48,771 bases of DNA, from IMG/VR virus record IMGVR_UViG_3300017773_000015, positions 1 to 48,771 of that record; one strand, written 5' to 3'. Under the pieces are notes generated by a model, which made no database searches, was not told where the DNA came from, and saw only the letters and a list, made by a program, of their open reading frames with translations. The DNA comes from a virus. Below are positions 3,101 to 48,771 of this stretch, piece by piece (position 1 is the stretch's first letter; every line of letters begins with the position of its first letter). Position numbers and translations under genes: made by a program.

Positions 3101-3717
3101 TCCGCAGAAGTTACTTTACCGCTACCGTTTAAATCATAACGAGCTATAAATTCTTCTTCACTAATTCCGTGCTTTTGCCACGTACCGGAGTCAAATTCTA
3201 CTACAGCTCGTGCATGCAGTGATGCAGCTTCCTGATTAGTTAAACCGTTTCTTCCCATGTACTGAAGAAAAGGCTCGGAGTTATTTTCAAAAACAGGGTA
3301 TTCGTTTCCATCACCATCTAGAGGAACATAAGACGCAGGTTGCTGCGGTGGTACTGCTGAGTGGGGCGCCACTGGAGTGTCTGATTGGTCTGGTGCAGGT
3401 ACACCAAATAAATCTTCGTAAGAAGGGGCAGGTGGGGTGTAGTCACTGCCCTCGCCTTCGTATCCTTCTGGTCTAGTAGCTGAACCTGCAGATAAATCTA
3501 CCTGTCCTGTAGATTGCATGGGCATTGTTTTTTGTGCAGCACCTGAAAAACTTTCAGAAGTTTCTTGTGGCGCAAAACTTTGAGAAGCCTGTGGTTGCAG
3601 TAAACTTTCGTCTTCTTCTACAGGAGGTTTTACAACTGTAGGAACAACTGGAGCTACAATACCACCAGTATTATATTTTCTTTTATTACGCTTTAAAGAT
3701 TTAATAGTTTTACTCAT
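1..3717 (-). CDS. Giant repeat-rich virion-associated protein, N-terminal part (residues 1-1239 of about 3085)
   Basis: The start is the ATG at 3717-3715, with GGAAG about 8 nt upstream and a TAA of the preceding gene 3 nt before it. I checked every triplet down to base 1 and found no stop. The frame continues at 48648 and ends at 43108, giving 9258 nt. Residues 1-130 are Pro/Gln-rich. Loop-like DGDGN lies at about 134 and a dockerin/EF-hand-like loop DLNGSGKVTSAD at 195-206. Three related units beginning near Y244, Y307 and Y382 share YDGS and YPDVY-type motifs. A thrombospondin type-3-like Asp-rich stretch lies at about 860-896, and PVD/PEV repeats near 1183-1216. Function is unknown. Its place between the fibre/holin genes and the candidate ejection proteins suggests a virion or ejected protein, which is inference. 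Confidence 0.88.
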   Translation of the reverse strand, partial: MSKTIKSLKRNKRKYNTGGIVAPVVPTVVKPPVEEDESLLQPQASQSFAPQETSESFSGAAQKTMPMQSTGQVDLSAGSATRPEGYEGEGSDYTPPAPSYEDLFGVPAPDQSDTPVAPHSAVPPQQPASYVPLDGDGNEYPVFENNSEPFLQYMGRNGLTNQEAASLHARAVVEFDSGTWQKHGISEEEFIARYDLNGSGKVTSADTILLAKGDYELPQPVQEEAPVVPEVPEAPVVPEAPAVYDGSTTMPERATVSDFEKRIEYLHAGPGGASASNAFMNTIKESNPELYYATFPEEEPEQVGTGYDGSTRIANIMSETGATRPTVEQLLTRAEYLSETDRTGQGTYYFNRDMEAAYPDVYYEAFPEKRPEPETPQPVTGYDGSININSHMLGQRISEPTVEMFQARENFILSVAGPESEAYIRFHNEMRDKYPDVYNATFSEAPAQEPVVEESFYANIPNPKGLDFDSVMNNLPVNSMNYMDGDQVSEEFIQLITSGTFFNPDAVGRDTFEKGDAMPAPFEYSNMQDYSEALEAHKKAQLAYLTPEEAERFNIVGRGIFPLPVGQVVGVDYLMSQFNGPAASEYIFKSNYKGNKTDTSDTQEYDRNTGEFVIPEGKQDFQQGDAPPEPSDYQQFGARSYQYALERYNAAQTGEAGDSLFPGEYNKYFVSPLTTDMYFDESTGRINLGEIKQTNVLYQDESYNDTIPSENIKRTFDVNDPYPEPKNYDSPIAWLQAATRWNLVQDEAEMYPNRVYGGTTTTIEELAALNPDTLGTEENPLPTLDQFDWQPTFGTRRFNWDDTPELTLPSKPSASGYTNPDEYIQAVKAWQPVYEDRLENIVAEEGRLEAIRQQEELDSADDDADGIQNSLDAFPKNPDEWEDADGNGIGDNQDELERVPDVPILTADNSTPLQQRKFIERILEEKYCDDPLYNTTLVTWEESQAKGLNLQQHFEYVNNWINAGGDPRIAYNDPNNTKQMSAEWLILQAIDQQNPNLEIDVNNLDNTVFELPPEPEPEVPDNILDPVEPEVPVEPAITSEIYEQEELNPYVEMDETQKINEGAALRAEYEGLISIGVIAERDIARAPIANQMIAIHRSMDFSDGDYTKSPLYNLMAFVPGMPKPDNRLYDAETLTQNPFAQFMSQSFRKLPEETRGLPIDYPTAFEGQFAPYPTTIEPETPENILDPVDPVNPVDPEVPVDPVDPVDPEVPVDPVDTGETVVDDTSLLEPSEPALPEIG
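70..159 (-). repeat. 9-bp tandem repeat coding PVD/PEV
   Basis: Ten consecutive 9-bp units, mostly gtctactgg with two aacttctgg variants, code Pro-Val-Asp and Pro-Glu-Val on the minus strand. Weaker copies of the same motif occur near 610-690. The window ends were cut inside this array, so the true unit number may be under-assembled. Confidence 0.85.
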
Positions 3718-3905: not shown

Positions 3906-5327
3906 TTATAGTGCTGCAATTATAAATGCTAATAGTTCTGGATAACGAACACCCAGTCTAGTTTTTGCTGTAGCGCCTTCGGGAGCATCTTGCGTATATA
4001 TTTCACCTTCGTGTTCCCACCAAGTAGTGCTGATAAACATAGCATAGTCACCTGCATTTAATCCTTCAGCAGTAAATGCAGCTTGTAAGTCTTGTGCTAT
4101 AATACCGAAGTGTGTACGAGCGTTGTCGCCTTTTTCTGTAACTGCGCTTTGCCATTTAAACTTACGCAGTAAACCTTTAGCTGCTACAGCTACTCTGCGT
4201 TCTGCATCGGATAGCTCTGCAATGTCTTGTTTTTCATTACGGTCAGAAGTTTGAATAGTTCCGTTAGTTGCGTATACGTCATCAAAACGAGTTGCAGTGC
4301 TGCCTAAATCTACGGAGTCGTCTTTATAATCTCCAATACTATCACAAGGTTGAACAATGTGACTTGTAAATTGAGTAGTTGCTAAAAGTCCACATCCCGG
4401 ACCTGCAAAGAAACTACCGCTTCCATAAGCTACTTCTGTAACCCCTACACTTCCTCTAAAGTTAGAACCAGTTATAAATTCAATTATGCGACCATCTTGA
4501 GTAGTGCCAGTATTGCTATTTGTAATTGTTACAATTGCATCTTCTTCAGAAGTTTTTCCGTCACTTATTTCAAGCGGCATTGCTAATTTACTACCTGCAA
4601 TGCTTCCTGCAAGTTGTGCGTTTGTTATAGTTCCACTAAGATTAGAAGTTAAATAACCTGTAGCATCAGCTAAATTAAATGCAGGAGTTGCATCTGATGC
4701 GCCAAGTGCCACTGAAATACCACCAAAAGAGACAGAGGAATTAGATAGTTTTGCATTTGCTATGCTCCCTGCTAGCTGTGCGTTAGTAATAGTACCGCTA
4801 AGGCTTGATGTAGGATAGCTTGTTGCGTCACTTAGGTCAAAAGCCGGTGTAGCGTCTGAAGCTCCTAAAGCTAAAGAAACGCCACCATAGGATACTGTAG
4901 AATTAGCTAGCTTATCGTTAGCAATACTTCCTGCTAACTGAGCATTAGTGATAGTAGTGCTTACATCTAAAGTAGTAGCATAAATTGTTTTGAATCTTTT
5001 GCTGCTAGTTCCTAAGTCAATATCGTTATTAGTTTCAGGAGCTAATACACCATCTGCAAGATTAAGCTGCTCAACAGCTGCACCGCCTACTTCAATAAAG
5101 AATTTAATTTCATTAGATTCAATAACAAGTTTGTTTAAAAAATCTTGGTCGCCAATTTTACTAATGTGACCGCCGCCACCGGCTGTGCCATCATGTGTAT
5201 GACCTGTAGTTCCAGTTGAAGCGTATGCAAACGCATTTAAAATTGCATTGTATTCATTATTAAAAAGTGCGGCAGTAATAATGTTGCCGTCATGTAAAGT
5301 GCTTTGTCGTGATGCGTATGTTGACAT
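3906..5327 (-). CDS. Tail fibre with C-terminal S74 chaperone domain
   Basis: This 473-residue protein follows the tail-tube gene by 4 nt. The N-terminal part (1-100) has a THDGTAGGGGHIS segment common in marine phage fibres and probably attaches to the tail. Two near-identical 54-residue units (about 126-178 and 180-231) plus a partial third (233-248) carry TITNAQLAGSIA and GASDATPAF. A LG(S/T)...RF..(I/V)YAT motif occurs twice (105-117, 341-353). The C-terminus from S361 carries SDRNEKQDI and HFGIIAQDL, the peptidase S74 intramolecular chaperone signature, with S361 and K366 as the expected catalytic dyad for self-cleavage after trimerisation. It should form the receptor-binding fibre. The receptor is unknown. 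Confidence 0.9.
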   Translation of the reverse strand: MSTYASRQSTLHDGNIITAALFNNEYNAILNAFAYASTGTTGHTHDGTAGGGGHISKIGDQDFLNKLVIESNEIKFFIEVGGAAVEQLNLADGVLAPETNNDIDLGTSSKRFKTIYATTLDVSTTITNAQLAGSIANDKLANSTVSYGGVSLALGASDATPAFDLSDATSYPTSSLSGTITNAQLAGSIANAKLSNSSVSFGGISVALGASDATPAFNLADATGYLTSNLSGTITNAQLAGSIAGSKLAMPLEISDGKTSEEDAIVTITNSNTGTTQDGRIIEFITGSNFRGSVGVTEVAYGSGSFFAGPGCGLLATTQFTSHIVQPCDSIGDYKDDSVDLGSTATRFDDVYATNGTIQTSDRNEKQDIAELSDAERRVAVAAKGLLRKFKWQSAVTEKGDNARTHFGIIAQDLQAAFTAEGLNAGDYAMFISTTWWEHEGEIYTQDAPEGATAKTRLGVRYPELLAFIIAAL

Positions 5328-15953: not shown

Positions 15954-16033
15954 CGTATATCTCCTATGCGGATTTCTACGATTCTTTTCACGCATGAACC
16001 TATGCGAACTATAAAAGTATAGTTATACTCTAT
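15954..16033 (-). promoter_or_regulatory. Leader of the late minus-strand transcript
   Basis: This short untranslated stretch lies between the minus promoter and the first late ORF. It contains CCTATGCG twice, 36 bp apart (15963-15970, 15999-16006, plus-strand reading). One copy also pairs with CGCAT at 15991-15995. A short AGTATA/TATACT palindrome lies just below the -10. These could be operators, but nothing here identifies a binding protein. Confidence 0.4.
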
Positions 16034-16062
16034 AGTATACCCGTAATATAGAGGTTTGTCAA
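16034..16062 (-). promoter_or_regulatory. Sigma70-type promoter for the late unit
   Basis: On the minus strand, TTGACA (16062-16057) and TATACT (16039-16034) are separated by exactly 17 bp. It points to the 20-codon ORF and terS. With no phage RNA polymerase or phage sigma factor recognised, the host holoenzyme should read it. It lies back to back with the early promoter; the two -35 boxes are 37 bp apart. Confidence 0.85.
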
Positions 16063-16099
16063 GCACTTTCTAAGGGAAGAGCAAAAAAGAAGAAATTTC

Positions 16100-16128
16100 T
16101 TGACAGATTGCGAATACAGCACTATAAT
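16100..16128 (+). promoter_or_regulatory. Consensus sigma70 promoter for the early unit
   Basis: TTGACA (16100-16105), a 17-bp spacer and TATAAT (16123-16128) are a perfect match to the sigma70 consensus. Transcription should begin near 16135. The first well-supported gene starts only at 16714, so the transcript has a leader of about 580 nt. Confidence 0.9.
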
Positions 16129-16132
16129 ATAC

Positions 16133-16601
16133 ATATAGCCCACCGGGTTATATATAGATGTTGGAGCATGGCTTATCGTACTTATCTACGTACCCGCTTT
16201 TTAGCTCCTGCCTTTAAAGCCCTATGAAGCTGCGGACCTGTCTGGTTTACATGCTACACCCTCCAAAAATGTATAAGATTGTATATATATCCCAGTACCC
16301 CCCTATGGCGACTTGCCCACCCCCTTGAAGTCTCTCAAGACTTCAAAAATTTTGAAGATTCTAAAGAATCTATCGAGCGCACACCTTGAAAATCTTAAAA
16401 GATTTTACAGACTCTCTAGTTTACAAAACTAGGGCAAAGATTTTCGAGTCTTTAAAGCTACGCTTTATTCCACAATCTCCAAAGTTTTCAACGACTTATA
16501 AGCATTTGTAATAAATGCTTAAATCATCGTCTGAGACTTTGAAAGTCTCCAATAAATCTATGGCGCACAGGTAATTTATTTCATAAATTCTGTACAACTT
16601 T
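16133..16601 (+). other. Early-transcript leader with a dense hairpin array
   Basis: Apart from a doubtful 19-codon ORF, no gene is seen here. Short-loop inverted repeats follow one another: 16133-16153 (9 bp with one G-U, right at the RNA 5' end), 16325-16346 (9 bp), 16341-16357 (8), 16356-16371 (6), 16389-16406 (8), 16416-16432 (7), 16453-16467 (6), 16500-16520 (8), 16533-16549 (8 nominal, centre base unpaired) and 16573-16589 (7). The arms differ in sequence from hairpin to hairpin, so these are not copies of one repeat. That points to selection for RNA structure rather than sequence. None has a U-run as a normal terminator would. Confidence 0.75.
16168..16227 (+). CDS. Possible 19-residue leader peptide
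   Basis: The ORF MAYRTYLRTRFLAPAFKAL begins 33 nt after the predicted start of the early transcript. A GGAG lies only 1 nt before the ATG, which is very close. It is basic and contains no other hallmark. It could be a leader peptide coupling ribosomes to the downstream hairpins, or chance. An overlapping frame from 16159 also gives only 19 codons. Confidence 0.25.
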   Translation: MAYRTYLRTRFLAPAFKAL

Positions 16602-16639
16602 TAGCCATTTAAAGTCTTTAAACAGACTTTAAATGGCTA
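16602..16639 (+). promoter_or_regulatory. 16-bp perfect stem hairpin
   Basis: Arms 16602-16617 and 16624-16639 pair perfectly around a 6-nt loop (ttaaac). It lies 3 nt upstream of the 27-bp hairpin. The arms are AT-rich with no following U-run, so it does not look like a terminator. Confidence 0.85.
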
Positions 16640-16642
16640 TGG

Positions 16643-16710
16643 AGTTCTCCAATTATTAAATTTAAAAAGAAGTTCAGAATGAACTTTTTAAATTTAATAA
16701 TTGGAGAACT
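16643..16710 (+). promoter_or_regulatory. 27-bp perfect hairpin sequestering the SD of the first early gene
   Basis: Arms 16643-16669 and 16684-16710 pair without mismatch. A 14-nt loop contains a further TTCA/TGAA mini-stem. The right arm holds GGAG (16703-16706), the Shine-Dalgarno for the ATG at 16714, and the left arm holds the complementary CTCC (16647-16650). Folded, the ribosome site is buried. A stem of this length is also a plausible RNase III substrate, as in T7 early mRNA. Whether cleavage or melting controls translation is inference. Confidence 0.85.
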
Positions 16711-16713
16711 ACT

Positions 16714-17142
16714 ATGAAAACTTCGAACTTCAGCAAAATCGACAACAACCAAATCGCAACTCAAAGACAAGTCTACGGAGTAGCTTGTCACTTTGCCAAC
16801 ATTCACTCCAAATCTCCTTCGGAGAGATATGGGCTGACTAAAGTCTTTAACGCTATCCTGAACAAATCCTATAAGGATTCTGATAGCTATATGACTCATG
16901 GCGAAGCCACTGAGTTTTTTGAGTGGGATTGTGTTCCACCACAATTTCTTCATCAGATAAAATCTGTGAAGAAGCCTGTCAAGAAGTCTACGACTTCTAA
17001 GAAAGTTAAAGCTTCAAAGAAAGCTTCTGCCCCGAAGGGGAAGGCGAAGTCATCTGGTCTTGAGAGACTCAACGTAGTTGAGAAACGAGTTGATGAAATG
17101 GATTCTAAGCTTAATCAGATTCTTGAAATTCTGAAGAAATAA
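16714..17142 (+). CDS. First early protein, unknown, basic with C-terminal coiled coil
   Basis: This 142-residue protein is not assigned to a function. Residues 12-75 have the layout ATQRQVYGVACHFA...YMTHGEATEFFEW, loosely like small domains in which an A-x-x-RQ helix is followed by a THGEA/SKAEA helix (DUF3072-like shape). Residues 83-115 are Lys/Ser-rich (KKPVKKSTTSKKVKASKKA). The last 27 residues (LERLNVVEKRVDEMDSKLNQ...) form a likely coiled coil. It may be a nucleic-acid-binding early protein. Its coding sequence also contains many short-loop inverted repeats, and its SD lies in a long stem. The minus-strand ORF across 16618-16953 is an image of the inverted repeats and is not called. 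Confidence 0.8.
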   Translation: MKTSNFSKIDNNQIATQRQVYGVACHFANIHSKSPSERYGLTKVFNAILNKSYKDSDSYMTHGEATEFFEWDCVPPQFLHQIKSVKKPVKKSTTSKKVKASKKASAPKGKAKSSGLERLNVVEKRVDEMDSKLNQILEILKK

Positions 17143-17216
17143 TTCAAATTAAATCTATCGCACGACACGGAAGTCGTGTATAATATAAATCTATTCAACG
17201 AGTGAGGCATAGAGTT
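17143..17216 (+). promoter_or_regulatory. Short gap with a hairpin and an AATCTAT motif
   Basis: This 74-bp gap has a CACGAC/GTCGTG stem at 17161-17178. Just before it lies a third copy of a motif also seen in the leader (aaatctat(c/g)g...gcac, 17151-17163). A TATAAT occurs at 17179-17184 but has no matching -35, so it is not called a promoter. Confidence 0.4.
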
Positions 17217-17636: not shown

Positions 17637-17693
17637 GAAGATAAATAATTAGTAAGTAAGTTTCTTACGAACTTACTAATTATTTATTCTTCA
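17637..17693 (+). promoter_or_regulatory. Long AT-rich hairpin before the gene at 17709
   Basis: Arms 17641-17657 and 17671-17687 pair perfectly over 17 bp. With one bulged base (17688), five further pairs extend it to 17636-17693. The loop contains a second mini-stem (AAG/CTT), giving the same two-part shape as the hairpin at 16643-16710. It ends 4 nt before AGGAGA of the next gene, so the SD is next to, not inside, the stem. It could be an RNase III site, an mRNA stabiliser or a pause site. Confidence 0.75.
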
Positions 17694-17708: not shown

Positions 17709-18323
17709 ATGTTCAACACTCACTGTAAAGCGGTTCAAGAATATTCTCAGCGTAATGCTAACAACATGGCAGACACGGTTCTTATGGTAGTTTTATCTAT
17801 TCAGCAGAACTGGCTCGGTGTCGGTGACCAAATGGCTGATGTTAGAGCTAACAAGTTAGACTCCAAGTTTCTTTGGGGTAACAAGATAAAGACTTATGAG
17901 TATCTCATGTCGAATAAACATAAGATGTTTGCTCAGGTTCAAGCAGTCCTTAACTCTGGTAAGAGCTATGACGAAAAGGCTTTCAGCCTGATGACAATCT
18001 TCCTTAGAGTTGACGGCTTAGGTTTACCTAAAGCAGGGTTCTGCTGTCAGCTAATAGCAGGAATGGTTGGTTGTATGGACGTTCATAACATTAAGATGTA
18101 CAACGTAGACCCTAAGATTCTGAAGCTGAATCCAAAGCCTAAGACTTTGAAAGCTATGGAAGCTAACGACCAACGAACCAGAACCTATATAGATTTGTGT
18201 CATGCTTATGGTTGTGATAATCTATGGAACTCATGGTGTGAGAACCTAGCTACAAAATCTAAGCGGTGGCAAGATGCTAACCATGTTAGCGAAGTACATT
18301 ATACTTATTTGATTGGAGAATAG
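17709..18323 (+). CDS. Early protein with HhH/glycosylase-like core
   Basis: This 204-residue protein has a strong AGGAGA ribosome site. Residues 95-131 (MTIFLRVDGLGLPKAGFCCQ..., then GCMDVHNIKMY) have the layout of helix-hairpin-helix DNA-glycosylase folds: a G-x-G-x-x-K-A turn (K108) and a downstream invariant-looking D in CMDVHN (D124). Proteins with the GLG-x-x-KA...C(L/M)D(T/V)HN pattern are widespread in phages and mostly unnamed. A DNA-binding or base-processing role is possible, but this is inference. Ordinary members of the glycosylase family are longer. Confidence 0.6.
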   Translation: MFNTHCKAVQEYSQRNANNMADTVLMVVLSIQQNWLGVGDQMADVRANKLDSKFLWGNKIKTYEYLMSNKHKMFAQVQAVLNSGKSYDEKAFSLMTIFLRVDGLGLPKAGFCCQLIAGMVGCMDVHNIKMYNVDPKILKLNPKPKTLKAMEANDQRTRTYIDLCHAYGCDNLWNSWCENLATKSKRWQDANHVSEVHYTYLIGE

Positions 18324-43107: not shown

Positions 43108-46100
43108 CTAGTCGTCAAAATTTAAAATTGATAATAAACTGTCTTTAAACGTGCTATCTTTTATAGCTTGTTCATTACTTAATGCAGTTGCATATAGTTG
43201 AGCATTGCGTTGTTCTTGGTTTTCATACGCTTGTCTAATATATGCAGCTTCATCACGTAACTGTTGCCATAGCTGTGTTTGTTCCTGTGCTGTTAAGTTA
43301 AACGCAATCTGAGCATTTTGCTGATTAGCAGCATTCTGAGCTGCAGTGTTAGCAGTATTTGATTGCCGTCTCCACTGAATGTTAGATTGTTCTACAGCTT
43401 GTGCATTTGCAGCATTCCATTGGTCACGAGCTAAATCTTGTTGCTCGTTAAACTTTTGCATATCTGCATCTAGCTGTGCTGTCAACGAAGCAGCTTGAAT
43501 ATAGTTACCTGATTCAATAGCTGCTCTACGATTCTTTTCAGTAGCGTTAAACTGATTTCTAGCTGCCGTAGCGCTTACATTATACTGTTCAATCTGAACA
43601 CCTAAGCTAGCCATAAACTGGTCAGCTTGTTGCTGATTAGCAGCGCCAAACTGAGCTGCTGCATTTTCTGAAGCTAAATTACTTAACAGTGTTTGTTGTT
43701 CCATTTGAGCATTAATTACAGCCATTTGTTGCCGATTAGCTAAGTTGCTCATGTCCATTTTTAAGAAGTTCTGAGCGTTAGTAATTGCAACTTTAGTCGC
43801 TTGGTCTGCAGTTGCTATCTCTATATTAGCCATAATCGTAGCATTTTGAATAGCTGCCTGTTGGTCTGCATCAAACTCTTTAAGTGTCATTGTCTGCATA
43901 AACTGACTGTTAGCCAACGAAGCTTGTTGGTTAAAGTCAAACTGCTTCATATCTAAGTTTGCATTTATCTGTGCATTAAACATTGCAGCTTGTTGAGAGT
44001 TAGATAGCTCTTGCAGTCCCATTTGTTGTGCAAGCTGTGCATTACCTTGAGCTACGGCTATTTCTTTTTCATAGCGTTGAAGCTCTGCAGTATTTTCTGC
44101 AGTCATCTTAGCTGAATCAAACTGATTAGTGTATGTTAAGTTAGCTAAAGCTACACGCTCTTCTGTGCTAAGTCTAGCCATGTCCGCATTTAGTTTTAGC
44201 TGCTCATTGCTTGAAAGAAGCTGTGAAGCTATAGTTAATTTTTGCAACTCAAAACGATTAGCTTCTGTAAAGTTTGCAGCATCTGCCGCAGCCTTTTCAG
44301 TTAAGTTAGCAACAGTGATTTGTTGTTCGTTGCTAAGATTAGCCATTTCCATTTGTTGTGCAAACGTAACATTAGTTTTCTTAAAGTCAATCAAAGCATT
44401 TAGATTTGCTAATCGTACTCTGTTTTCTTCTGACATGTTTGCACGGTTAGTTGCATTTAACTCGGTCAACTCAGTCAGCTCTAACTTTAATTCTGCGTCT
44501 AAATTAATTTCTGCAATGCGTTGGTCTAGCTCTGCTTGTCTAATGTTTCGAGCTACTTTGTTTTTCAGCTCATCTAATCTAAACTGATTATCAGCTGTAA
44601 AATTAGCAGAATCTGTAGCAGCTTTATCTTGCAACATTGCTAGTTCAACTTGTTGCTCATTAGTTAGATTAGCCATGTCCATCTGCTGTGCTAGCGTAGC
44701 ATTTGTTTTACGCAAGTCTACAAGAGTTTGTAAGTTTACTAAACGCTCTTGGTTTTCTACAGTCATTGTATCTTTAGCTGCATCGTTTTGCTGAGACAAG
44801 TTCTGTAGCTCTAATGAAAGACTAGCATTAAGATTTGCTTTTTCAATATCTTGGTCTAGCTCGGCTTGACGCACTAACGTAGTTATCTGAGCATCGTAAG
44901 TTTTAAGTCTTGCAGCTTGTTCGGAATTTAGATTGTTTACTGAAGCATCATTCAAAGCTTTTAAGTTTTCATAATCTCTACGAGAGTTTTCACTAAACTG
45001 AGCTAAAGCTGCTTGTTGAGCTAGTTGTGCATCAGCAGCTGCTTTAGATTGAGCATTTTGCGTGTTTTGCATTGCTGTTTGCTGTTGCTGCTCTGAAGTA
45101 ACTATAGCTGCTTGTTGGTCGAACGTAGATTGTTTCACAGCAATTTCTTGAGCCATACGTGCAGTTTCAGAAGCTGCAAGCTGTCTATTTGCTAAGTTAC
45201 CTAATCTAACTTGCATTACATTATTAGCTTGAGCTATTTCAGCATTTTGCTCGTTTGTTAAATTTAAGTTTGCTCTATTTTGTAGCGCTGTAGCGTTGCC
45301 TTGTGCAATCGGTAAAGCACTCTGAATAATAGCATTAAACATAGCATCTCTACCTACAGTAGAAGCTGACAAACCTCTTCGTGCCATTACACCGTCTAAA
45401 GCTGCAATAGTTGGTCTAGCCCACGCAGGAATATTATCAGTTTCAATACCTGCAAGAAGCAGTTCCATTTGCGCTGATACTAGTGCCTCTGTTGGAAGCG
45501 CTGCAATTTTAGCAGCTACTGTTGGGTCAGGGTCAGTATCTAACTGAGCTTCAACACTTGCAGGGTCTTGAGCAATTGCAGCTGCCGTAGTTTCTGGCAT
45601 ATCTGCTACAACTTCTAGCATTTCAGAAGCGTTTACTTCCCTATCTTCTGAAGTTACCGCTTGCATTTGTGCAGCTTCAAATGTAGGCACACCGCCAATT
45701 TCAGCTGCAGAGCCTTGAGGAGCAGTACCTGTAATAGCTTCACGACCTTCTAAATCTGTAGCAATATCAGCATCTGAAATTACTGTAGCTTCTCCTGTAG
45801 CTGCTTCAGCTGTTTGAGCTGTACGAGTAGCTGCCTTTTCAAATGAAGGAACGTCTTCAATATTTGTAGTCAGCGCAGAAACACTTGTAGCAGTTCCAGT
45901 TTCTGCCGTAGCTGCTGTAGCTATAGGAGCTTCTCCACTTAACTGAGCTGCTGTGCCTGTAGCTGCCGTAGCTGACTGAGCTGTTCGTTGTTTAGTTGCG
46001 TTAAACTCAGGCAAGTTTTCAATGTTTACACCTCTTTCTTGTGCAATCATTGTTAGCTGAGTAATATCATCTGTACTTAAAGTAGTAGCAGAATAAGCAG

Positions 46101-48771
46101 CAGATACTTCAGGTCCTTCAACTTCAGCAATTTTTTGAGCGCCTGCGTTTTCTAAAAATTCAACTCTTTTATCTACAGCCTCTCGATATGCCTTAAATGA
46201 TGGTACAGCCTCTAAATTTTTAAGAGCTTCTGCTTTAGCTTCGTCAGTTTCTGCATCCACATAAGCTTGAGAAGCATTTTTATATGCATCATCTTCTTTC
46301 ATTTTAGCATCAGCAGCTTGAGTTGCAGCATCTAAGTCTTTAAACTCATCACTGTTTTTAGCTCGTCTGTATGCTGTAGCTGCTATAGCTAAAGAGTTTT
46401 CAGATAAAGTCCCAGTTGCAGCAGTAGCTTGAGCAGAATCAACAGTAGCTTGGTCACGAGTTGCAGCAGTTATTTCAGGTGCAGTTATATCCGTAGTCCC
46501 TGCCGCTTGCACAGTTCCGTCAAATGTAGCGGCTGTCCCTGTAGTTGCTTCTTCAGCTGTTTTAGCTGTAAACGAAGAACCTGTTACAGGAGTTTCAGGA
46601 CCACCAACATCTGTAGGTGCGTCTTGCTGTGCAGTAGTTCCCATGTCTCCTGCCCCTACAGTTTGAGCCGAGCGTCCTGTTGCACCGCCTAACTCTTGAA
46701 CTTGACCAGAGCTTGTTATAGTTTGCGAAGCTGCGTCTGTTTGTATTTGAGACGGAGTTGCTACTTTAACGTCAGGTGCATCGGGAGTTCCTATGTTTAT
46801 TTTAAGCGGTTGACCAGAAGAATTTCTTTCAATCACTGTTGCATTTGTTGGGTCTGCCATATTATTATCTGAGCCTCCTGAGCCTACTGAAAGTAAATAC
46901 AAGCTTTCAGCATTTTCGTGTAATTTATCTTCTATTAAAAAGATTTCATATTTACCTTTTTCTATATTATAATTTTTTAATTCTTCTGCAGTAGCATTAT
47001 CGGGAAGAACTGGTTCAAAAACTTCAACTGGTGGTGTAGGATAGTCTGAGTAATTAAAATTCTCATACTTATCATACACTGCGTCTAATCTATTAACTAA
47101 AGAGTTCCAAGCATCTACGTCATCATTATATCTTTGAATTTTAGCTTTGTTTTGTTTTGACTGAGCACTTGGACCTAAAGTTATAATATTGTAAGTATCT
47201 CTATCTGGCTCTGAACCTAAGAATGAATAATCTCTATTGTCTTTTAGTGGGACACTTTCTGTAAAGTTAGCTAAAGCTTGTTGTAGTTCTTCCTCAGTCA
47301 TTGCAATATCGTCTGCAGGAATTTCATCTTCATCTCTTTCTGGAGTATCTGTTACAGGCGTATCGTCTACAACAGTCGTGTCATCTACTACAGGCGTATC
47401 GTCTACAACAGTCGTGTCATCTACTACAGGCGTATCGTCTACAACAGTCGTGTCATCTACTACAGGCGTATCGTCCACTACAGTCGTGTCATCTACTACA
47501 GGCGTATCGTCCACTACAGTCGTGTCATCTACTACAGGCGTATCGTCCACTACAGGCGTGTCATCTACTACAGGGTCAGTGTTTCCTGCGTCATACCAAG
47601 CATTTAAAAGAGCAGCGTATTGATTGCTTAATAAATTACCTTTAACAGGTTTGTCACTTCCTAACGAAACTTGAGCGCTTGCCCAACTTGCTACATCGCT
47701 ATTATACTTTTCATTAGAAACACCTTGATAGTCATAACCACTAGGTGGATTCTGACCTTGTGTAAATGTTAAATTACCATAATCAGGTCCAGTATTTACA
47801 ACCTCATCTGCATCGTCTTCTTGAGAATCTAAAAGACTAGAATCATCTGCAGGCTCTTCTACAACTACTGGCGCTGTAATAGCTGCTTGATAAGCTGCAG
47901 CAACCTCTCCTCTTTTTTCTTCTGGATATAGAGAATAATCAGGAACAGGGCTATCTTTTGTAAATGTAGGCATTACAAAATCTTCTAAGCTAGGACCTTC
48001 CTGAACCGGCATAGTTTTTCTTAAATATTCTTCCTGAGCAATATTGTATATGTCCATAAGCTGACCATACACAGCTATTTCAGCTTGTCGTTTTTCTTTT
48101 GCAAAACGAGTAGCGTAAAAATCATCGTTAATCCAATCTTCTTCATTCATAAATGCAGGGTCTAAAAGCGGAGGACCGGGGTCTGCAGGCATTAAAGGAG
48201 CATCAGGACTATCATTATTAAATACACTATTTTTTTGATTATAAGCAGCTGTTAAATCTTCTTTTAAATCCGCAGCTAAATTAATATATTTATCATTGCC
48301 AGTGCTGCCTCCTCCCAAAGGTTCAGGAGTAATTCCATCAATATAGCTATAATCTGGTGCGCTGTCAACAGTCACTTCGGGCACAGGAGTATTCCATTGC
48401 GGATGATACATTGCAACATAAGGAGCACTAGAACCTAAGTTCATGCTTCCAAAACTCCAATTACTCAGGTCGGGCATTATTTCATTTCCTGCACCTACCC
48501 AATTTTCTAAAACTATTTGAGTATCATATCCTGCTTCTTGATAAGCAGGAAAATCTACTTCGTTTAAAAGCATTCCTGTTGGAAAACTAATAGGAAGAGA
48601 ACCGTCTCCACCTGCATTTTTAATAACATAACCATTTTCATAGCTTTCACCTATTTCAGGCAAAGCAGGTTCTGAAGGTTCTAAAAGACTAGTGTCATCT
48701 ACAACAGTTTCGCCAGTATCTACTGGGTCTACTGGAACTTCTGGGTCTACTGGGTCTACTGGGTCTACTGG
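43108..48771 (-). CDS. Giant virion-associated protein, C-terminal part (residues about 1240-3085)
   Basis: This is the continuation of the gene starting at 3717, reached across the circular join (48648 is followed by base 1 upstream). A TTG at 48663 is not the true start. The part from 1240 to about 1600 is acidic and Pro-rich. Residues about 1600-1671 are PVVDDT-type repeats. About 1830-2270 is an Ala/Thr/Gly-rich section with repeated TA-x-x-ATG-x-A motifs. From about 2400 to the end it is a long Gln/Asn/Ala-rich coiled coil with a 110-residue tandem duplication. The last residues are KDSTFKDSLLSILNFDD. The long coiled coil suggests a fibrous or internal virion protein; the role is unknown. 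Confidence 0.88.
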   Translation of the reverse strand, partial: PVDPVDPVDPEVPVDPVDTGETVVDDTSLLEPSEPALPEIGESYENGYVIKNAGGDGSLPISFPTGMLLNEVDFPAYQEAGYDTQIVLENWVGAGNEIMPDLSNWSFGSMNLGSSAPYVAMYHPQWNTPVPEVTVDSAPDYSYIDGITPEPLGGGSTGNDKYINLAADLKEDLTAAYNQKNSVFNNDSPDAPLMPADPGPPLLDPAFMNEEDWINDDFYATRFAKEKRQAEIAVYGQLMDIYNIAQEEYLRKTMPVQEGPSLEDFVMPTFTKDSPVPDYSLYPEEKRGEVAAAYQAAITAPVVVEEPADDSSLLDSQEDDADEVVNTGPDYGNLTFTQGQNPPSGYDYQGVSNEKYNSDVASWASAQVSLGSDKPVKGNLLSNQYAALLNAWYDAGNTDPVVDDTPVVDDTPVVDDTTVVDDTPVVDDTTVVDDTPVVDDTTVVDDTPVVDDTTVVDDTPVVDDTTVVDDTPVTDTPERDEDEIPADDIAMTEEELQQALANFTESVPLKDNRDYSFLGSEPDRDTYNIITLGPSAQSKQNKAKIQRYNDDVDAWNSLVNRLDAVYDKYENFNYSDYPTPPVEVFEPVLPDNATAEELKNYNIEKGKYEIFLIEDKLHENAESLYLLSVGSGGSDNNMADPTNATVIERNSSGQPLKINIGTPDAPDVKVATPSQIQTDAASQTITSSGQVQELGGATGRSAQTVGAGDMGTTAQQDAPTDVGGPETPVTGSSFTAKTAEEATTGTAATFDGTVQAAGTTDITAPEITAATRDQATVDSAQATAATGTLSENSLAIAATAYRRAKNSDEFKDLDAATQAADAKMKEDDAYKNASQAYVDAETDEAKAEALKNLEAVPSFKAYREAVDKRVEFLENAGAQKIAEVEGPEVSAAYSATTLSTDDITQLTMIAQERGVNIENLPEFNATKQRTAQSATAATGTAAQLSGEAPIATAATAETGTATSVSALTTNIEDVPSFEKAATRTAQTAEAATGEATVISDADIATDLEGREAITGTAPQGSAAEIGGVPTFEAAQMQAVTSEDREVNASEMLEVVADMPETTAAAIAQDPASVEAQLDTDPDPTVAAKIAALPTEALVSAQMELLLAGIETDNIPAWARPTIAALDGVMARRGLSASTVGRDAMFNAIIQSALPIAQGNATALQNRANLNLTNEQNAEIAQANNVMQVRLGNLANRQLAASETARMAQEIAVKQSTFDQQAAIVTSEQQQQTAMQNTQNAQSKAAADAQLAQQAALAQFSENSRRDYENLKALNDASVNNLNSEQAARLKTYDAQITTLVRQAELDQDIEKANLNASLSLELQNLSQQNDAAKDTMTVENQERLVNLQTLVDLRKTNATLAQQMDMANLTNEQQVELAMLQDKAATDSANFTADNQFRLDELKNKVARNIRQAELDQRIAEINLDAELKLELTELTELNATNRANMSEENRVRLANLNALIDFKKTNVTFAQQMEMANLSNEQQITVANLTEKAAADAANFTEANRFELQKLTIASQLLSSNEQLKLNADMARLSTEERVALANLTYTNQFDSAKMTAENTAELQRYEKEIAVAQGNAQLAQQMGLQELSNSQQAAMFNAQINANLDMKQFDFNQQASLANSQFMQTMTLKEFDADQQAAIQNATIMANIEIATADQATKVAITNAQNFLKMDMSNLANRQQMAVINAQMEQQTLLSNLASENAAAQFGAANQQQADQFMASLGVQIEQYNVSATAARNQFNATEKNRRAAIESGNYIQAASLTAQLDADMQKFNEQQDLARDQWNAANAQAVEQSNIQWRRQSNTANTAAQNAANQQNAQIAFNLTAQEQTQLWQQLRDEAAYIRQAYENQEQRNAQLYATALSNEQAIKDSTFKDSLLSILNFDD
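44221..44880 (-). repeat. 110-residue tandem duplication in the coiled coil
   Basis: Two adjacent 330-bp segments (44551-44880 and 44221-44550) code related sequence. Each starts with RQAELDQ and contains a TL/TF-AQQM(D/E)MANL(T/S)NEQQ block. DNA identity is only partial, so the duplication is old and kept at protein level. Confidence 0.75.
47354..47569 (-). repeat. Six 36-bp tandem repeats coding PVVDDTTVVDDT
   Basis: Six exact-length units follow one another at 36-bp spacing. The upstream three (plus-strand order) use cgtctacaac and the next ones cgtccactac at the same place. Each codes 12 residues of alternating hydrophobic pair and Asp-Asp-Thr. There are no spacers and the frame stays open, so this is not a CRISPR array. 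Confidence 0.9.
48649..48771. repeat. Right copy of the 123-bp terminal overlap
   Basis: This is identical to bases 1-123 and should be removed once when the genome is circularised, leaving 48,648 bp. The join is in frame within the giant gene. Confidence 0.93.

Follow-up and report, generated by a model that had tools for sequence, protein, structure and literature searches.

The early transcript of an HMO-2011-type marine phage carries a long untranslated leader in which a conserved core precedes a predicted series of small hairpins and a final pair of long stems. The phage is represented by a viral contig of 48,771 bp from IMG/VR, analysed here over its full length (the window). In the reading to which we give roughly an even chance, the hairpins shield the early RNA, the last stem gates the first early gene (g1), and template switching keeps the arms paired. 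Judging from sequence, the leader would be expected to fold in the cell, and shielding and gating are its presumed functions.

The phage type follows from the terminase, portal, coat protein, family-A polymerase, primase-helicase and ribonucleotide reductase found in the window with PHROGs and Pfam. Phages of the HMO-2011 type have been described as a dominant group that is widespread in the ocean (PMC9038755). Profile matches also identify a Cas4-like exonuclease and place a B12-dependent-type insertion domain in the ribonucleotide reductase. Among cultured phages, TerL is closest to that of the Pelagibacter phage HTVC115P (68 percent), then to those of Roseobacter CRP phages and HMO-2011. 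Many relatives of the window are present in IMG/VR; the deposited phage collection holds no near DNA match to it, and the distant DNA matches there are at chance level only. The window further encodes an 1851-aa protein (43108-48663) with almost no family match except one short PHROG match, and a 1772-aa protein matching a PHROG annotated as endolysin; no tRNA was found in it.

The TerS/terminase operon runs leftward and the early operon rightward, diverging from an intergenic region between the two gene blocks. With a sigma-70-like promoter on the minus strand facing the terminase operon (Table 1), both operons would start from this one region, and the -35 boxes of the two divergent promoters form an inverted repeat (16057-16105). 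The early promoter is a sigma-70 consensus from whose position transcription would begin near 16135. The early operon is probably dependent on the host polymerase, because the search of genes in the window revealed no RNA polymerase of the phage's own. The location of the hairpins on an early transcript behind a consensus promoter, as originally predicted, recurs among the relatives: TTGACA-(16 to 18)-TATA[AC]T lies upstream of the leader in 28 of 28 representatives.

The hairpin excess is stronger than had been claimed. Between 16133 and 17200, 19 perfect stems have arms of at least 6 bp, counted with loops of 1-10 nt and with overlapping stems included, against 3.2 +/- 1.8 (maximum 11) in 200 dinucleotide shuffles; the chance expectation is therefore about three stems, where about two had been estimated. 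At arms of at least 7 bp the counts are 12 versus 0.9, and at 8 bp or more 6 versus 0.24. Among 1068-bp segments of the whole 48.8 kb, the highest-ranking begins at 16001 and the next at 16201, and the only two genome-wide outliers among 500-bp bins span 16001-17000. Folded with a pairing span of up to 60, the transcript from the promoter start to the first ATG (16135-16716) reaches -148 kcal/mol, well below the range of its dinucleotide shuffles (-79; z = -11.0). A low-complexity or simple-repeat artefact is excluded by the dinucleotide and synonymous-codon shuffles.

The anatomy of the array departs from the original prediction in several details. The array had been thought to run from the RNA 5' end; its short hairpins begin at 16325, and 16135-16324 is occupied by the conserved core and, at the very 5' end, a hairpin that includes one GU pair. 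For the ten hairpins counted before the long stems, eight separate ones have arms of at least 6 bp, and thirteen in all are found with arms of at least 5 bp. The two long stems are exactly as described (16602-16639, 16 bp; 16643-16710, 27 bp, 100 percent). Within g1 the excess is real, even though the arms of three listed hairpins (16813-16825, 16954-16966 and 17030-17040) do not reach 6 bp. This excess exceeds codon constraint: the g1 CDS of near relatives holds 76 stems versus 16.8 in synonymous-codon shuffles (4.5 times, z = 15.9). From one array hairpin to the next the centres lie about 39 nt apart, and the median linker is 19 nt. In most leaders the longest linker is about 31-41 nt (arms of at least 5 bp), and the spacing is often more regular than chance would give.

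Table 1. Features of the divergent promoter region, the early leader and the first early gene in the window.
Feature	Position	Strand	Basis
Divergent sigma-70-like promoter, TTGACA-17-TATACT, towards terminase operon	16034..16062	-	Read from sequence
Sigma-70 early promoter, consensus TTGACA-17-TATAAT	16100..16128	+	Read from sequence
Structured untranslated leader of early transcript, ~580 nt	16135..16713	+	z = -11.0
5'-terminal hairpin AUAGCCC-ACC-GGGUUAU	16135..16151	+	Fold; most near relatives retain GCCC/GGG(G)
Conserved leader core (CTGGTTTACA ... AAAATGTATA ... GTATATATA ... ATGGC..TTGCCC)	16218..16333	+	27-locus alignment
CTRGTTNMCA, first copy	16242..16251	+	Motif search
Array hairpin 1, 9 bp, 4-nt loop	16325..16346	+	Stem count; covarying arms across relatives
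Array hairpin 2, 7 bp	16356..16371	+	Stem count
Array hairpin 3, 8 bp; other relatives have GAAGACTTTTAAAGTCTT	16389..16406	+	Stem count; covariation helix 1
Array hairpin 4, invariant CTAGTTTACAAAACTAG, with second CTRGTTNMCA copy (16416-16425)	16416..16432	+	Covariation helix 2
Array hairpin 5	16453..16467	+	Covariation helix 3
Array hairpin 6	16499..16521	+	Covariation helix 4
Array hairpin 7, 8 bp	16533..16549	+	Covariation helix 5
Array hairpin 8, 7 bp	16573..16589	+	Stem count
First long stem, 16 bp	16602..16639	+	Inverted-repeat search; covariation helix 7
Second long stem, 27-29 bp	16641..16712	+	Inverted-repeat search; covariation helices 8-10
First early gene g1, 142 aa	16714..17142	+	ATG 16714
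In-g1 hairpins	16865-16879, 16928-16945, 16982-16998, 17009-17026, 17068-17082	+	Stem count
Hairpin directly 3' of g1	17161..17178	+	Stem count
Further long stem before 204-aa gene (17709-18323)	17641..17687	+	Inverted-repeat search

The same layout recurs among relatives, with an array that varies. The comparison set comprises 39 sequences, namely the window and 38 IMG/VR loci, from which 28 representatives were folded. The order TerS (leftward), promoter, hairpin leader and g1 is kept across the 39, with 759-1014 bp from TerS to g1 and a leader identity to the window of 49-88 percent. All 28 representative leaders fold better than their own shuffles (z -2.5 to -15.3), 20 of them at about -8 to -15 and eight more distant loci more weakly, at -2.5 to -7.3. 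Hairpins differ in number between relatives and stand at matching positions with arms that are different yet complementary, these positions and the linkers between them being recognisable even where identity is as low as about 60 percent. When each region is counted separately over 20 near relatives, stems amount to 0.5 times expectation in the TerS CDS (6 vs 11.5), 3.4 times in the interval from TerS to the promoter (68 vs 20), 1.6 times in the 5' part of the leader, 6.0 times in the array region (z 28) and 1.4-1.6 times in the genes downstream of g1.

Further afield, the isolates HMO-2011 (leader and first CDS) and CRP-1 carry analogous arrays of unrelated sequence at the matching place, and the array of CRP-13 is weak. 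The first gene of HMO-2011 has no relative in IMG/VR beyond its own record. In the HMO-2011 genome (NC_021864) the hairpin AGTCCGACAGCGGACT occurs twice, at about 53880 and 54810, with one copy on either side of the first early gene. The portions of CRP-3, CRP-603, CRP-738, HTVC104P and HTVC115P that were read show no array. HTVC104P, HTVC115P, CRP-603 and the loci L054-L057 have a similar core yet are poor in array hairpins or lack them, so not every member of the group needs the array. A strict link between the array and g1 is likewise rejected: by eye, several hairpin-poor loci carry an apparently diverged relative of g1, so that the gene can be present without need of the array.

Compensatory change supports the original proposal that it is the structure of these stems, and not a repeated sequence, that is kept. 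RNAalifold on 20 aligned arrays gives 54 pairs, 29 of them with two-sided changes. A somewhat fuller 69-pair structure was drawn up on the same alignment, and the control with slid partners therefore favours it: 91.6 percent of its cells are paired, versus 81.0 in shuffled alignments and 34-60 with slid partners. Two-sided changes occupy 153 cells versus 53 (0 of 500 shuffles as high), and the covariation score is 0.342 versus 0.152 when shuffled (0 of 500) and at most 0.154 when slid. At one pair of array hairpin 5, GC, UA and CG occur in 8, 6 and 6 sequences with none broken. The arms of array hairpin 6 read TTAGTC/GACTAA, TAAGC/GCTTA, TAGGC/GCCTA and TTGAGC/GCTCAA in different relatives, and 11 of 12 counted pairs covary in the first long stem. 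A repeated protein-binding palindrome is rejected, as the arms change from hairpin to hairpin and, at any one position, from relative to relative; several array hairpins have in common an AGTCT/AGACT theme.

A test on ten disjoint pairs of closest sequences, in which the second sequence is free of the same-alignment bias, points the same way. Linkers diverge by 15.7 percent per site in these sister pairs. In the stems, two-sided Watson-Crick changes are in excess (28 seen vs 6.3 expected) and one-sided changes scarce, with 18 seen vs about 203 expected under independent change; the 18 consist of 1 GU, 7 AC and 10 other. Of 100 hairpins, 7 were lost and 3 gapped. The two refuting outcomes originally named, a folding energy like that of shuffled sequence and stems broken in relatives without compensation, were both tested for, and neither refuted the array.

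How perfect pairing is maintained is a separate matter. The usual view is that compensatory changes in stems go by way of GU pairs (PMC8794818), and a constraint acting on RNA only should favour GU over AC. It is hardly or not favoured here, the one-sided GU:AC counts being 24:18, 27:41, 24:14, 1:7 and 2:7 over separate comparisons. Some changes are concerted, as between L004 and L007, which differ at four pairs of one stem. A few clear multi-base cases of exact loop inversion are also seen: AATA/TATT (L012 vs L014), TTTG/CAAA and TTT/AAA. Template switching between inverted repeats has been reported to cause arm homogenisation and spacer inversion (PMC8604942, PMC8794818). The concerted arm changes, scarce GU intermediates and occasional loop inversions point to template switching as the mutational supply. 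It is likely that the stems are kept by the polymerase switching DNA templates between arms, with selection holding the structure. The template-switched RNA hairpins of Monttinen and Loytynoja (2022, PMC8794818) are similar in that multibase two-sided events keep stems perfect without GU intermediates; those hairpins lie in RNA genes such as rRNA, whereas here an array of 10-20 hairpins fills a phage leader and first gene. With dozens of stems, many relatives and almost no one-sided changes, the array is an unusually clean natural case for asking whether stems evolve via GU intermediates or by single template-switch events.

Template switching could also act without any function being served. 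A replication feature at the divergent promoters might make it frequent, so that inverted repeats arise and become perfect in any sequence able to change, which here would be the leader and the tolerant Lys-rich part of g1. This functionless hotspot we consider quite unlikely. The near symmetry of GU and AC, the exact loop inversions, a change from C6 to G6 in the core of one relative, the hairpins upstream of the promoter and, in HMO-2011, a hairpin density that tapers with distance all speak for such a hotspot. It does not sit well with hairpin positions and linkers held to about 60 percent identity, with the ribosome-site stem kept in the near clade, or with loops and excess energy that are asymmetric towards the plus strand.

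This asymmetry bears on whether the hairpins belong to RNA. Raw folding energy is lower for the minus strand in 28 of 28 leaders, apparently an effect of base composition; the composition-controlled excess is larger on the plus strand in 25 of 28, and a minus-strand RNA is rejected on that ground. Plus-strand loops are A-rich (A 0.50, T 0.29, G 0.07). The excess energy, these loops, the steep surplus of stems on the 3' side of the promoter and the stem holding the Shine-Dalgarno sequence together favour a plus-strand RNA, for which the stem excess between TerS and the promoter, in part expected on the leftward transcript, is a caution. That some hairpins precede the promoter is one of the points in favour of a DNA-level element, a replication origin or single-strand initiation zone whose hairpins would form on ssDNA of either strand. 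Such an element would lie at the divergent point of the two gene blocks, and its stems would be Watson-Crick perfect on both strands with no clear preference for GU, as observed. We nonetheless regard it as decidedly improbable, because the loops are strand-biased and the excess peaks downstream of the promoter and enters the g1 CDS, the TerS CDS showing none. Two further candidates were discarded: a terminator array, because the aligned leaders lack a T-run after the stems, and N4-type hairpin promoters, because no virion RNA polymerase was found in the window.

In the favoured reading of a shielding and gating leader, host RNA polymerase would start at the consensus promoter and produce an untranslated leader of ~600-800 nt, laid out as a 5' hairpin, the conserved core, the short-hairpin chain and the two long stems. 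Close hairpin spacing would limit single-stranded stretches, so that Rho, RNase E or other endonucleases, and mispairing gain little purchase. The last long stem would cover the g1 ribosome-binding site and delay translation up to the point where something, RNase III for instance, opens or cleaves it. As the hairpins need only be hairpins, their arm sequences could drift freely, and DNA template switching, by copying one arm from the other, would keep the pairing perfect.

In phage lambda, the N leader consists of a nut site, an RNase III stem and the ribosome site of N. Both systems have an early promoter, an RNA element and a long stem adjoining the ribosome site of the first gene, which in lambda is a regulator. 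The sequences are unrelated, and lambda is not known to have a hairpin array. The corresponding feature here is the long stem 16643-16710, whose 3' arm contains the Shine-Dalgarno GGAG of g1 (16702-16705) and whose helix 8 covaries. A stem that may sequester the ribosome site gives a concrete part to the translation-timing idea among the functions first proposed for the array. The g1 protein is Lys-rich and conserved among relatives, and its model shows a helical domain of high confidence (residues about 10-84) that a basic, disordered linker joins to a C-terminal helix. It has no convincing relative in Pfam, PHROGs, PDB or BFVD and none in the deposited phage collection. With respect to an antiterminator of the lambda N type, it is thus a basic, Lys-rich protein for which family and fold searches return no match.

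Long stems recur downstream. Before several early genes there are perfect or near-perfect stems of about 17-28 bp, several of which have an AGTTC-TTAC-GAACT apex in common; they are candidate RNase III or translation-control sites. The stem before the gene for the 204-aa early protein has counterparts in L027, L017, L011, L023 and L009. This protein is conserved across the group, with its best deposited-phage matches (~30 percent) in ParKuw1 (Paracoccus), Mwe-JY26 (Microcystis) and CRP-9 (Roseobacter). Other long stems lie at 4303-4348, 4940-4985 and 6488-6553 in L027 and at 3292-3339 and 4938-4983 in L017.

A functional leader would be a large RNA, as yet undescribed, at the very start of infection. 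It looks like an apparently undescribed RNA of HMO-2011-type phages: a full-text search of the open-access literature found no paper in which HMO-2011 and hairpin appear together, and by term search the main text of PMC9038755 mentions neither promoters, hairpins nor non-coding sequence. A bolder and rather unlikely proposal is that the array represents a new modular class of RNA, an expandable, sequence-free hairpin chain that covers the beginning of the early transcript and runs into the CDS, is kept perfect by template switching, recurs with unrelated sequences in different lineages of marine phages and gives the first viral RNA a general armour or timing device.

A trans-acting role has also to be weighed, in which the RNA would be a large structured scaffold or sponge for a host or phage protein, comparable to GOLLD or ROOL. 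These RNAs likewise have hundreds of nucleotides of conserved structure and some occur in phages (PMC12286853), and the leader is long, strongly structured and conserved. In most of the eight more distant loci a second sigma-70-like promoter just upstream of g1 separates the leader from the gene, so g1 need not depend on the array there and the leader may serve beyond g1. The sequence of this extra promoter is TTGACA-17-TGTAGC/CGTAAC in most of the distant clade (L042, L045, L059, L060, L061, L063, L067 and L069). We find the trans-acting role very doubtful: GOLLD and ROOL have one defined global fold, whereas the array has no single fold and consists of modular local hairpins of changing number with unrelated arms. 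No terminator was seen between leader and g1 in the aligned leaders, and Rfam gave 0 matches at gathering score in the window, its sub-threshold matches falling mainly on the long stem.

The core of the leader is conserved in sequence, with a mean column identity of 70 percent over 27 aligned loci, one of which (L019) is misplaced in the alignment. A core-like element is seen by eye in HTVC104P and CRP phages. The core of L017 (2002-2117) has GGGGGG in place of CCCCCC within otherwise conserved sequence, and G-runs at this site are frequent in more distant loci. The motif CTRGTTNMCA stands in two leader copies ~160-290 nt apart in most loci, several hairpin-poor ones included, and is hardly found outside the leader in up to 10 kb of sequence. 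It is not enriched in the window as a whole (3 vs 2.07 expected), and its significance therefore rests on its conserved positions. Within the near clade, array hairpin 4 is the sole hairpin of unchanging sequence, all 7 of its core pairs being identical in 20 of 20 aligned sequences, and its 5' arm and loop are made up by the second copy. The motif would explain why that hairpin alone is invariant and suggests that it is a separate, putative sequence-specific site.

The core and motif could belong to a processive antitermination element of the HK022 put RNA or lambda nut type, the core binding polymerase and the array arising as a by-product. In loci that have it, the core lies just 3' of an early promoter, as put RNA immediately follows an early phage promoter (PMC9378689); the early operon is probably host-polymerase dependent, and the motif recurs in most leaders and hardly elsewhere. 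This is nevertheless the least probable of the readings considered. The array is several times longer than put RNA and variable in its arms, no put- or nut-like sequence was recognised, and in place of the conserved two-stem feature of put the core has 9 consensus pairs of which none (0/9) covaries. CTRGTTNMCA is possibly an operator or an RNA signal, and a DNA operator would serve equally well. Between the 5'-terminal hairpin and the array, a possible 19-residue peptide (MAYRTYLRTRFLAPAFKAL) is encoded at 16168-16227; it is probably not a gene, and its reading frame is apparently not kept in more distant relatives. TRGTTNACA, similar to CTRGTTNMCA, occurs in HTVC115P and HTVC104P, with three copies in the leader region.
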